The notes beneath the pieces are model-generated. The model was given only the letters and a program-made list of their open reading frames with translations, made no database searches and had not been told where the DNA came from. Shown in pieces: positions 53,643 to 57,017 of a stretch of 64,000 bases of DNA. Within the stretch, counting starts at the first letter, position 1, and every line of letters starts with the position of its first letter. This DNA is from an uncultured Eubacteriales bacterium (GTDB lineage: Bacteria; Bacillota; Clostridia; Oscillospirales; Oscillospiraceae): contig ONEB01000001.1 of the NCBI GenBank assembly GCA_900316745.1, positions 179,094 to 243,093 on the forward strand. Reading direction: 5' to 3'. Made by a program: the position numbers and the translations under genes.

Positions 53643-53647
53643 CCGAA

Positions 53648-53682
53648 CAAGGCTGCGAAGGGCATTCGCAGCCTTGTTTTTT
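53648..53682 (+). terminator. Terminator of the lexA-like operon
   Basis: Perfect 12-base stem (53648-53659 with 53665-53676), 5-base loop, then T6. Confidence 0.93.
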
Positions 53683-53755: not shown

Positions 53756-53775
53756 GGTGAAGGAGGGAACAGTAC

Positions 53776-55965
53776 ATGGATTCCTATGATCAGTCGCTTG
53801 TCTTTGCCGCGAAAAACGGCAACGAAAAAGCATTTGAGGCGCTTTACGAGCGCTACTACCAGAAGATCTACGCCCTGGCGCGCACGACGCTGAAAAACGA
53901 AGCCGACGCTGAGGATGTCCTGCAGCAGACCTTCGTGAGCGTCTGGCAGAACCTGCCGAAGCTTGAAAACACCGAAGCGTTCAGCACCTGGATCCAGCGC
54001 ATCACGCTCAACCACTGCCGCTCGCTTCTGCGGCGCAGGAAGGGCGACGCATCGCTCGACGCGCCGATCGACGACGCCTCGGACGGACTGGCGCCTGAGC
54101 CGGAGTCGGACCTCCTGCTGCCGCAGGTCTATGCCGAGCGCGAGGATCTGCGCGTGCGGCTCGGGCACATCCTCGACGAGCTGAGCGATGTGCAGCGCCA
54201 GACCATCCTGCTGTATTACTATAATGAGCTCTCCGTGGACGAGATTGCCCAGATCATGGACTGCAGCACCGGAACGGTGAAATCCCGTCTGTTTCTCGCC
54301 CGCAAGAGCATCCGCACTGAGATCGAAGAGCAGGAGCGCAAGAGCGGTCAGAAGTTCTACGGCGTCGTGGGGCTTCCGCTCGTCGCGCTGCGCGATCTGT
54401 TCAACCGCAGCGTTGCCGAGACGGCGCTCACCCCGGCAAAAGGCTCCGCCGTGCTGCGCCGCGTGCTCTATGCCTCCGACGCCGCCGGAAAGACCGCGGG
54501 ATCGGCAGCAGGCTCCGCCGCCGCAAAGAGCGCGGCAGCTGGGAAAGCCGCCGCCGGAGCCGCCGCGAAGAAAGGCGGCGCGGCGCTCTCAACGAAGATC
54601 ATCGCCGGGATTGCCGCCCTCGGGCTCGTCGGCAGCGGCGCATTCGGCGCCGCGCGCTATTTCAGCAGCCGCGACGACGCGGACGAAGACCGCGAGCCGC
54701 GCGCCGCCGTCACCGACATTGCAACCGAAGCGCACGAAGCAATCGACGCCGCCGCATTGTATCCCCGCCTGATCGACCGGCTGGATCAGTCGGGCGTCGT
54801 GGATTTCCCGGGGCAGCCGCTCGGCCACTCGCAGGTGACTTTCCACGACATGACGGAGGACGGCTCGCCGGAGCTCATCTACATCGTCGGCGCAGCCGAC
54901 GCCGCCGGCATTTCGGCGACGCTGCACATCGACGGCTGGTCGGACGGCGCGGTCGCGCCGCTCTATGAAGAGGCGCTGGGGCAGGACGGGCTTCCGTTCC
55001 GCCTGTCCGTCTTCTCCGCCGCGCGCGGCGCGGTCGATCTGTGCGTCGAGGACGTCAACGGCAGGCGGCGCTTTGAGCGCATCTCGCTCAGGCACGGCGA
55101 GCCGGAGACAGAGGCGATCAACGCCTCCGACGTGGATCCCTCCGGCGGCGCGCTGCTCGGCTATGACGATCTGGAGAGAGAAGCCGACGCACTTTTCCCG
55201 GCGGAGAACCGTGCGCTCTCCTTTTCCGGGGCACGGCAGTATCTGACATGGCTGCTGGAGCAGGGCGCGGACCCCGACGCGCGGCAGGAGATCGATCCCT
55301 CTCAGCTTCCGCTCCCGCTCGATCCGTTTCTGGTCAATTTCTATTCCCGCTCAGAGGCGGAATTCCACTATACCACGGCGTGCAGCGCCGACGGCACGGG
55401 CATTCTCGGCAGGATGCTCAACAATCCGAGCTGCGTGAATTTCACGCTCTACCCGGTCGACAGCTACGAGGCGCACTGGTCGGAACGCGATCCGCGCGGC
55501 TGGAGTGAAAACGCCGCCGGCTCCTATGCCCGCTTCCCGGCCGCTTCGATCGGCTGGATCACGAGCCGGGTCTTCAACCTCCCCGCCGAAGAGATGGCCC
55601 AGCTGTATCAGCGCGGTGAGGACGCGCGGCAGTATTATTATCAGGCGGGCGTCGGCTCGACCGCTGCCGCCTACTACGTCCCCATCGGCGGCGTCGGCAG
55701 CGACATGCTGGAGTTTGAGATCACCTATGCCGCGTTTGACGGCGCGCGCTATTACATTACCTACGACGCATACAGCACATGGGAGCAGCCGCGCGAATAT
55801 CTCAGCACGCACCATATCGTGCTCGCGCTCTGCACGGCGGAGGACGGCACGTCGTACTGGTCGGTGCTGCACCACAGCGCGGATGACCCCGGCGAGAGCT
55901 GGTACCGCAACGCGCCCGCTCCCGCCGCACAGGACATCTATGCTCTTCCCGTGCCGCGGAGCTGA
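53776..55965 (+). CDS. Membrane-tethered ECF sigma factor fused to a large extracytoplasmic domain
   Basis: 729 residues. Sigma-2 (about 15-88, with EDVLQQTFVSVWQNL) and sigma-4 (about 125-182, with LSVDEIAQIMDCSTGTVKSRLFLAR) are complete. An Ala/Gly/Lys-rich linker (about 235-270) leads to one membrane helix (about 273-295) and some 430 residues outside, containing VTFHDMTEDGSPELIYIVG and EEMAQLYQRGEDARQYYYQAG but no domain I can name. Ordinary ECF factors have about 180 residues and a separate anti-sigma factor; none is encoded here. Release by proteolysis or action at the membrane is inferred. First gene of an operon with a lipoprotein, carbonic anhydrase and SGNH lipoprotein. Confidence 0.88.
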   Translation: MDSYDQSLVFAAKNGNEKAFEALYERYYQKIYALARTTLKNEADAEDVLQQTFVSVWQNLPKLENTEAFSTWIQRITLNHCRSLLRRRKGDASLDAPIDDASDGLAPEPESDLLLPQVYAEREDLRVRLGHILDELSDVQRQTILLYYYNELSVDEIAQIMDCSTGTVKSRLFLARKSIRTEIEEQERKSGQKFYGVVGLPLVALRDLFNRSVAETALTPAKGSAVLRRVLYASDAAGKTAGSAAGSAAAKSAAAGKAAAGAAAKKGGAALSTKIIAGIAALGLVGSGAFGAARYFSSRDDADEDREPRAAVTDIATEAHEAIDAAALYPRLIDRLDQSGVVDFPGQPLGHSQVTFHDMTEDGSPELIYIVGAADAAGISATLHIDGWSDGAVAPLYEEALGQDGLPFRLSVFSAARGAVDLCVEDVNGRRRFERISLRHGEPETEAINASDVDPSGGALLGYDDLEREADALFPAENRALSFSGARQYLTWLLEQGADPDARQEIDPSQLPLPLDPFLVNFYSRSEAEFHYTTACSADGTGILGRMLNNPSCVNFTLYPVDSYEAHWSERDPRGWSENAAGSYARFPAASIGWITSRVFNLPAEEMAQLYQRGEDARQYYYQAGVGSTAAAYYVPIGGVGSDMLEFEITYAAFDGARYYITYDAYSTWEQPREYLSTHHIVLALCTAEDGTSYWSVLHHSADDPGESWYRNAPAPAAQDIYALPVPRS

Positions 55966-55979
55966 CTGTCGGAGAAAGG

Positions 55980-57017
55980 ATGAAGAAAATGAAACGAACG
56001 ACCATCTGCCTGACGCTCTGCCTTGCGCTGATGCTGACGCTGCTCACGGCCTGCGGGAACTTAAACGCGTTCGGCAGCGCGCCCATGTCCGCCGCCGAGG
56101 GCGGCTGCGAGCTGCAGAGCATGACGACTGAGAGCTTTTCCAACGGTGAAGCGGTGCAGTCGGTCACGATGCACTATGCCGCGAACGGTCTGGTGGAGTC
56201 CATCGAATCCGGCGCGCAGACGCAGGACGTAGAATACACGTTCGACGACAACGGCAGCCCCGTCACGATCGCGGTGAACACGGAGGACGACCCTTTCTCC
56301 GCGGAGCTTGAGATCGACTACGGCGGCATCACGACCGTGGCGCTCAAATCCCTCACCGTCAACGGCGAAACCGGCACGGATTTCAGCAGCCCGAACACGC
56401 TCATGTCGAACACCTTTCTCATGATCTTTCGCCTGATCGAGCACTTTGACGCTTTCCGCAACGCCACGCTCTATGTCCCCGACGCGTATACCGAGCAGCG
56501 CATGGCGGACGGCGAGGTCGTCTATCTCTCCACGCACTATGACAACATCAGCACGACCACGGAGATCCTGCCCAATCCCGACGGCGGCACGACGACCGTC
56601 ATCAGCACGGACGTCGGCGGCACACGCTCCGTCCAGAGCATCACGGCGGACGCGGAGCGCTGCCCGATCCGCTATTCCGTTTCCGGCGGCGGCAATCAGA
56701 TTGCCTTTGATATCGCATACACCGAGAACGAGGACGGCTCGCGCGTCGGCATGCCGGAGAACATTGACGTATCCGGCGAGGGCGACGGGATCGCCGAGCT
56801 GCAGCAGCAGCTGGGAAGCATAAAAGTCTGCAGATGCGCCTACGAGGACGGCAAGCTCACAATGGTTGAACAGTATCAGGTGATGCAGGCCTCCGGAAGC
56901 GACAACTCGCTTTTGAGCGCCGTGAACTATGACGCGCAGGGACGCATGACGCAGCAGACCACGTTCAACCCGCTCTCCGGAGAAAAGCTTCAGGTCACAA
57001 CCTGCACCTACCGATAA
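55980..57017 (+). CDS. Lipoprotein with repeat-like beta structure
   Basis: 345 residues with signal peptide and lipobox LTAC near residue 23. The mature part has repeated short YD/RHS-like strand-turn units (YAANGLVESIES, VEYTFDDNGSPV, VNYDAQGRMTQQTTF). ATG 55980 overlaps GGAGAAAGG; ATG 55989 is the other candidate. It begins 14 bases after the sigma-factor stop, so it is probably under the same two promoters and may be the ligand-binding or partner protein of the sensor domain. Function unknown. Confidence 0.8.
   Translation: MKKMKRTTICLTLCLALMLTLLTACGNLNAFGSAPMSAAEGGCELQSMTTESFSNGEAVQSVTMHYAANGLVESIESGAQTQDVEYTFDDNGSPVTIAVNTEDDPFSAELEIDYGGITTVALKSLTVNGETGTDFSSPNTLMSNTFLMIFRLIEHFDAFRNATLYVPDAYTEQRMADGEVVYLSTHYDNISTTTEILPNPDGGTTTVISTDVGGTRSVQSITADAERCPIRYSVSGGGNQIAFDIAYTENEDGSRVGMPENIDVSGEGDGIAELQQQLGSIKVCRCAYEDGKLTMVEQYQVMQASGSDNSLLSAVNYDAQGRMTQQTTFNPLSGEKLQVTTCTYR

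Follow-up and report, generated by a model that had tools for sequence, protein, structure and literature searches.

The window analysed here is a stretch of 64,000 nucleotides from an uncultured Eubacteriales bacterium. On its forward strand, positions 53776-55965 hold one open reading frame of 729 codons, with an ATG start and without interruption, in which an ECF sigma factor is joined to a membrane helix and a tail of about 436 residues beyond that helix. The features of the locus are as follows:

53646-53678, no strand assigned: terminator-like inverted repeat, between the upstream GDPD gene and the fusion gene
53760-53766, + strand: consensus ribosome-binding site AAGGAGG, from the sequence, 9 nt before the ATG
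53776-55965, + strand: whole gene (ECF sigma, linker, predicted membrane helix, putative exported part), 729 aa
53776-54060, + strand: sigma region 2, residues 1-95 (Pfam Sigma70_r2 at 23-89; structure model)
54124-54330, + strand: sigma region 4, residues 117-185 (Pfam Sigma70_r4_2 at 128-178; structure model)
54337-54495, + strand: post-sigma4 module, residues 188-240 (conservation; structure model)
54496-54585, + strand: Ala/Gly/Ser-rich flexible linker, residues 241-270 (alignment; pLDDT <50 from residue 252)
54598-54654, + strand: predicted single transmembrane helix, residues 275-293 (hydropathy)
54667-55245, + strand: charged stalk and putative membrane-proximal exported region, residues 298-490 (DGSPELI motif)
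55258-55920, + strand: putative distal exported domain, residues 495-715 (recurs in other proteins)
55980-57017, + strand: lipoprotein gene (lipobox by pattern), its start 14 nt beyond the stop codon of the fusion gene

An earlier note on this DNA, made from the sequence alone, had claimed that intact sigma-2 and sigma-4 regions are followed in the same chain by an Ala-rich linker, one helix and a large exported part, and the single 729-codon frame confirms this layout. Both sigma regions are above the Pfam cut-offs, Sigma70_r2 at residues 23-89 (59.3 bits, cut-off 24) and Sigma70_r4_2 at residues 128-178 (56.9 bits, cut-off 25.7), as is Sigma70_ECF. NCBIfam likewise gives an ECF sigma factor, with TIGR02937 at 103.5 bits (cut-off 42.9), and the 25 of 110 NCBIfam families listed all match inside residues 1-195. 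With regions 2 and 4 present and no region 3 family matched, the window protein is an ECF (group IV) sigma factor. Across 50 fusions, the window protein and the 49 homologues described below, residues D47, Q50, W72, R171 and R176 are each conserved in 90% or more.

In the alignment of these fusions the order is sigma2, sigma4, a conserved segment, an Ala/Gly/Ser-rich linker (in most), a Gly/Ala-rich helix and a charged or proline-rich stalk. The post-sigma4 module comprises a conserved hydrophobic segment, G.K(F/L)YG..P.., which reads G.K[FL]YG..P.pfLL in many fusions, and two predicted helices at residues 201-215 and 220-240 (block pLDDT 75-83). Relative entropy is 1.85 bits for sigma2 and 2.27 for sigma4, and falls along the module from 2.02 bits (residues 188-200) to 1.40 (201-216) and 0.99 (217-240), so that residues 188-200 are conserved as strongly as sigma2. 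Single-protein Pfam scans covered 41 of the 50 fusions (all except L115, L124, L133, L137, L185, L187, L190, L192 and L194) and listed no known anti-sigma domain in any of them, and the HxxxCxxC zinc-finger pattern occurs in none of the 50 rows spanning sigma to helix. The lack of a known anti-sigma domain in these 41 fusions counts against the receptor reading given below and leaves a built-in inhibition, for which the post-sigma4 segment is a candidate, putative.

The structure model is confident for sigma2 and sigma4, with pLDDT of at least 90 by blocks over residues 1-90, and falls below 50 at residues 252-283. The modelled sigma takes a closed form; its top matches, compared as whole sigmas, are SigW-RsiW and CnrH-CnrY (TM-score by target 0.81-0.82), followed by RpoE-NepR (target-normalised 0.76-0.77), while ECF sigmas bound in holoenzyme score 0.30-0.44. 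Since several other anti-sigma complexes score little above holoenzyme (1or7 0.47-0.49, AlgU-MucA 0.46-0.48, SigK 0.55, SigE-ChrR 0.40-0.48), the closed model is weak evidence for a putative inhibited state.

Forty-nine homologues were gathered, 34 from the family of the window genome and 15 from elsewhere in the class. Selected for the length of their frames, all 49 keep sigma2 and sigma4, one helix and then a tail in one frame, three of the tails ending at contig ends (L115, L133, L138). Residues 1-305 searched against 300 family genomes gave matches at E <=1e-22 in 133; 37 family sigma regions with a long frame or a long match were fetched, which hold 34 fused proteins from 25 genomes, and at least 26 of the 300 genomes carry a fusion, the window's own included. 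A set of 291 class genomes added at least 15 further fusions from 10 genomes. The class matches listed that pass position 260 without a stop lie in frames of 396-796 aa, and most other class matches listed end near position 188, in frames of about 200 aa. Fusion counts are lower bounds throughout, since at most 5-8 candidates per genome are scored with these queries. Several genomes hold more than one fusion, with at least four each in G238 and G478 and at least three each in G261 and G297. In the window genome the fusion gene is the sole full match, four others being sigma-only in frames of 199-233 aa, and in nine other genomes of the genus the matches stop by residue 191, except two that run on through stops. 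Among the matches listed from 398 phylum genomes, only two reach position 260 or beyond without a stop, that of the window and that of G415, and each of these belongs to the class; in the plasmid collection no match covers 80% of residues 1-305. The sigma-helix-tail plan is thus found mainly, not wholly, in the class. Outside it, a frame of 551 aa in G923 (L217) joins sigma to an apparent helix, an acidic stalk and a repetitive tail with DxDxDG repeats, and a frame of 280 aa in G750 (L241) includes a hydrophobic segment but runs only 101 residues past sigma4, without a large tail; these two are possibly separate origins of the fusion.

Four of the class sigma matches listed lie in frames of 1049-1088 aa without a helix. 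In these (L198:3944-7123, L199:1527-4673, L200:3378-6551 and L201:1385-4615), which come from two other class families, sigma is fused to about 850-900 residues, and they represent another type of giant sigma fusion, one that is apparently soluble.

Some early material was set aside. A first collection scan of 53 loci gave matches to the sigma part only, many in Flavobacterium, and was used solely for outgroup rows. In one early search L078 and L079 were clear and L080-L083 weak (E 3e-4 to 0.008), and the locus of L080, a short frame, was later matched by profile at 1.2e-10. A mixed alignment of sigma and tails (A5) misaligned the tails and was replaced by two separate alignments (A6, A7). A6 excludes L126 (cut by a contig end), L147-L150 (not fused) and L198-L201 (fused, no helix), and retains L115, L133 and L138 despite their truncation at contig ends.

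A maximum likelihood tree of 111 sigma domains places all 50 fused rows together with L111 in one clade (97/85); the rows of the tree are these 50 and 61 others from the window genome and from the genus, family, class and first collection searches, all of them matches to searches with the window sigma and not a random sample, the outgroup rows from the first collection scan being thinned to every fourth. The fused label requires 2 changes on this tree against 36.7 in shuffles, and none of 500 shuffles is as low. L111 bears the non-fused label in this count, although it is itself a fusion with a broken frame. Two other rows labelled as non-fused, L172 and L180, are long helix-free fusions and fall outside the clade. 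The window protein groups with L115, L114 and L116 (100/100). For five pairs of relatives dN/dS is 0.12-0.29 in sigma and 0.27-0.57 in the tails, with 0.12-0.20 for the middle part in four pairs (undefined in the fifth). Values below 1 on either side of the helix in five of five pairs show that both ends are under constraint, and the tails evolve faster than sigma, as sensors would. Forty-nine homologues in the same order and one frame, together with dN/dS below 1, indicate that the fusion is more than chance.

Because fusions had been selected by frame length, 17 matches from the genus, family, class and phylum searches that run past sigma through stops were read separately. In 16 of them the sigma gene comes to a stop 1-21 residues beyond its sigma4 match, and a distinct ORF bearing a hydrophobic segment lies downstream; 15 times this ORF is in another frame, and in L240 it shares the sigma frame after a stop. 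Several of these following ORFs have HxxxCxxC near the start (by eye), a pattern that is a mark of zinc-finger anti-sigma factors, and the 16 are not fusions that have broken but sigma/anti-sigma pairs of the ordinary sort. In the remaining match, L241, the helix is in frame and the protein ends 101 residues past sigma4. The two-gene arrangement is thus normal outside the fused clade, and since 16 of 17 non-fused relatives keep a separate following ORF, the fusion takes the place of a separate gene. Within the clade only L111 is not one frame: its reading frame is lost at a run of A just after sigma4 (stop codon at 1984), and the linker, helix and tail beyond are encoded in a different frame, through sequencing error, decay or possibly slippage that would yield free sigma. 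Homologues consistently split into two genes near residue 190, the case named in the earlier note as telling against a fusion, were not seen; all 49 are in frame.

The window helix, at about residues 275-293, has a best 19-residue Kyte-Doolittle mean of 1.90, with net charge more positive on its N-side; an earlier hydropathy scan that skipped overlapping stretches had given it at 267-285 with a score of 1.64. No second segment in the tail of the window protein reaches 1.6 (best 1.5). Taken by itself this hydropathy is moderate, and it is the median of 2.17 among the relatives that makes the helix convincing: a helix is predicted after sigma4 in 50 of 50 rows (range 1.56-3.61), so that a lack of predicted membrane insertion at residues 273-295, which the earlier note had named as telling against its reading, is not seen. 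Net charge is higher on the N-side of the helix in 46 of the 50, lower in 1 and equal in 3, and when K and R alone are counted the N-side exceeds the C-side in 27 against 4, with 19 ties. No tail among the 50 fusions has a further segment of 1.6 or more. A post-sigma4 segment of at least 1.6 over 19 residues is found in 7 of 50 (L119, L128, L137, L185, L187, L189, L194), and over 15 residues in 21 of 50; if that segment were membrane-spanning, the tail would lie inside.

Beyond residue 189 the window protein has no Pfam match up to E = 1. Its tail gave nothing convincing against the PDB by sequence (best E 0.34) and nothing at E 0.001 against structures by fold, for which the tail model is poor (pLDDT 52.7). 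The exported part is therefore unmatched in Pfam, NCBIfam and the PDB, in keeping with the claim that it holds no recognised domain. The distal domain (residues 495-715) nevertheless recurs in other proteins: in two lipoproteins of one genome (L151, L211; lipoboxes by eye), in a membrane protein with a zinc ribbon and a helix (L152; zinc ribbon by eye), in a signal-peptide protein with SLH-like repeats (L209; both by eye), and in two distant sigma fusions of another family (L189, L192). It is rare: among 300 genomes of the family 5 carry it, and among 391 of the class 3 do, the window genome being one of them in each count. Its presence in lipoproteins, in the secreted SLH-like protein and in the zinc-ribbon membrane protein argues that it is an exported domain, and the fact that its profile matches the distant L189 and L192, but not the sigma neighbours L114 and L116 (L115 is cut), shows domain swapping.

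The tails of the first 35 proteins, some of them cut by contig ends, fall into 16 clusters at E 1e-3, with sizes of 11, 5, 4 and 3 and 12 single. Domains above the Pfam cut-off in other fusions are Big_2, RCC1, WG, SH3_3, lipocalin-like, DUF6273 and DUF3298. In the 35 proteins of the family set, Big_2 is found in three and RCC1, DUF6273 and DUF3298 in one each, with LRR in three, below cut-off where scanned singly; WG repeats, SH3_3 and lipocalin-like/DUF5640 occur in one each of 10 class members scanned singly. The DUF3298 of L136 scores 35.5 bits (cut-off 24.1), without a DUF4163 match, and a sequence search with this tail against the PDB matched no RsiV structure. The lysozyme receptor RsiV is described as having two outer domains, and DUF3298 is one of them (PMC5014341). 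A DG..EL motif, whose pattern was written post hoc after viewing the tails, occurs in 9 of the 50 tails, where shuffles give 0.2. Two loci (L117:3644-8022 and L145:2270-5885) hold tandem pairs of fusion genes in which the sigma parts are related and the tails belong to different clusters, which suggests duplication followed by tail replacement.

The lipoprotein gene at 55980-57017, whose product has no Pfam family above cut-off, is probably co-transcribed with the fusion gene. The inverted repeat at 53646-53678 suggests that the fusion gene may have its own promoter; 4 terminator-like repeats were found against 2.7 in shuffles, so chance matches are expected. The separate anti-sigma factor reported missing in the earlier note is indeed lacking from the two neighbouring proteins scanned, neither of which has an anti-sigma domain in Pfam, and none of seven window neighbour genes recurs in other fusion loci. 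A survey of 50 downstream regions (26 without a ribosome-site-led ORF, 5 at contig ends) found the downstream ORF exported in 11 of the 19 loci that have one, by a crude rule and without a control; genes right after fusions are possible targets or co-sensors. The window genome encodes a Peptidase_M50 (site-2 type) protein at 200 bits, a near universal family with some score above cut-off in 14 of 14 control genomes.

One-component transmembrane signalling, as first proposed from the sequence, is the best reading of the architecture, the conservation, the modular tails and the predicted topology, and about 50 relatives with the same plan and different outer domains suggest single-protein sensors that switch genes on when triggered. 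We think it fairly probable that the window protein is a transmembrane sigma receptor, silent at the membrane and released by site-1 and site-2 proteolysis. Sigma would lie in the cytoplasm and the tail outside, with one helix joining them. In the unstimulated cell the membrane tether would keep sigma from RNA polymerase, while the post-sigma4 module probably folds onto sigma, replacing a separate anti-sigma factor. A signal at the outer domain would lead to site-1 cleavage outside and then to site-2 cleavage in the Gly/Ala-rich helix by a RasP/RseP-type protease, and the freed sigma would then switch on its targets, of which the lipoprotein gene next door may be one. Processing of this kind is described for IutY, a single chain of sigma, helix and outer domain that is processed by Prc and RseP (PMC5411451), and for C. 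difficile sigmaV, whose release follows a first cut of RsiV, probably made by signal peptidase, and a second one made by RasP (PMC9044953). For the window protein itself we infer the inhibition, the signal or ligand, the cleavage, and the targets and promoters.

The main rival, which we regard as unlikely, holds that sigma stays tethered and is switched at the membrane by conformation or dimerisation, as in ToxR or CadC, without proteolysis. The layout of the window protein follows the ToxR-like plan, in which a single helix separates a DNA-binding part at the N terminus from a sensor at the C terminus, and the long flexible linker would let sigma reach RNA polymerase. A sigma factor, however, must load on polymerase and then stays behind at promoter escape, which favours a freed subunit, and IutY, the closest characterised protein, is described as cleaved.

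We consider it improbable that the tail is not outside, either with the helix uninserted or with two segments inserted, which would make the protein a soluble or peripheral sigma with an extension like those of ECF41 and ECF42. The moderate hydropathy of the window helix (1.90), the post-sigma4 segments noted above (7 of 50 over 19 residues, 21 of 50 over 15) and the existence in the class of separate helix-free sigma fusions of about 1050-1080 aa would fit such a protein; the recurrence of the tail domain in lipoproteins, an SLH-like protein and a zinc-ribbon membrane protein, the charge bias in 46 of 50 fusions and the surface-type domains on other tails argue against it. Constitutive cleavage soon after insertion, with the tail as secreted cargo or cell-wall protein and sigma reporting export capacity, is quite improbable: the same outer domain does occur in separate lipoproteins and in the SLH-like protein, but a conserved sigma-helix unit that bears many different tails, in several copies within a genome (at least four each in G238 and G478), looks like a receptor repertoire. 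That two genes were read as one through a missed stop or frameshift is hardly credible. In its favour, L111 breaks frame after sigma4, and of the 17 sigma relatives read from outside the fusions 16 are followed by a separate ORF; against it, 49 homologues show no break, and all five pairs compared have dN/dS below 1 in sigma as well as in the tail.

The released, membrane-tethered sigma that we favour belongs to a general kind already published, the fusion of sigma, helix and outer part, in IutY and ECF52 (PMC5411451, PMC5826349, PMC8999054), and the window protein and its 49 homologues are ECF sigma factors with a transmembrane regulatory extension. ECF sigmas with regulatory extensions have been reviewed, the transmembrane ones described there being IutY and ECF48, ECF52 and ECF53 (PMC8999054). 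IutY of Pseudomonas putida (ECF243), a sigma/anti-sigma hybrid, shares with the window protein a cytoplasmic ECF sigma, a single helix and a large outer domain, but its outer part is described as a CSS (FecR-type) anti-sigma domain signalled by a TonB-dependent receptor of the Gram-negative cell; the window protein has no Pfam match to that domain, and its relatives differ from one another in their tails. In ECF52 (SCO4117 of Streptomyces), taken together with ECF48 and ECF53, sigma, transmembrane part and outer domain likewise form one chain. ECF52 is defined by a zinc finger, a transmembrane region, a proline-rich extension and a carbohydrate-binding domain (PMC5826349), the zinc finger preceding the transmembrane region and the proline-rich stretch lying between that region and the outer domain, and is described as exclusive to Actinobacteria, with proteolytic release proposed. 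In contrast, a zinc-finger anti-sigma family of the ECF52 type is listed in none of the 41 fusions scanned singly, and the window protein has no Pfam match to a carbohydrate-binding module after residue 189. The sigmaV-RsiV system of Firmicutes resembles our proposal in its outer receptor domain, its single helix and the freeing of sigma by site-1 and site-2 proteolysis; RsiV, however, is a separate anti-sigma protein, whereas in the window sigma itself bears the helix and outer domain, and the RsiV-type DUF4163 and DUF3298 are absent from the window protein in Pfam. ECF262 (type SFB89493.1, Ruminococcus albus), ECF264 and ECF288 are listed with regulatory extensions, some in Firmicutes (PMC8999054, Table 2), and ECF262 may be the fused clade.

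The open-licence PMC literature, a scope outside which the main ECF classification papers fall, yielded no description of the clade. What appears new here is the lack of zinc-finger or FecR-type parts in the window protein and the swapping of outer domains across the clade. That these proteins form a distinct, paralogue-rich group of Clostridia-type membrane-tethered sigma receptors, with one fusion event, a post-sigma4 substitute for the anti-sigma factor and swapped sensors including an RsiV-type one, is a tentative proposal about which we are slightly more doubtful than confident. If true, it would add a third transmembrane mode of gene control beside two-component systems and sigma/anti-sigma pairs, widespread in Clostridia-type bacteria, with outer sensor domains swapped like the input domains of histidine kinases. 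In the portions of the review drawn on here, IutY is the only fused transmembrane sigma named as experimentally characterised for such activation, and SCO4117 is the best studied ECF52 (PMC8999054). If a large clade combines one conserved sigma-helix unit with many unrelated outer domains, fused sigmas would be a general receptor class, a source of one-protein sensor modules and of sensors that can be tested in bacteria for which genetic tools are few. The post-sigma4 segment, being conserved, offers a concrete candidate for a built-in inhibitor, which deletion could test.

In two of the fusions (L186:3038-5005 and L192:217-2109) a zinc ribbon lies ahead of the sigma domain, matched as Pfam Zn_Ribbon_1 in L186 and seen by eye in L192, which parallels the zinc-ribbon membrane protein L152 that shares the outer domain of the window protein.
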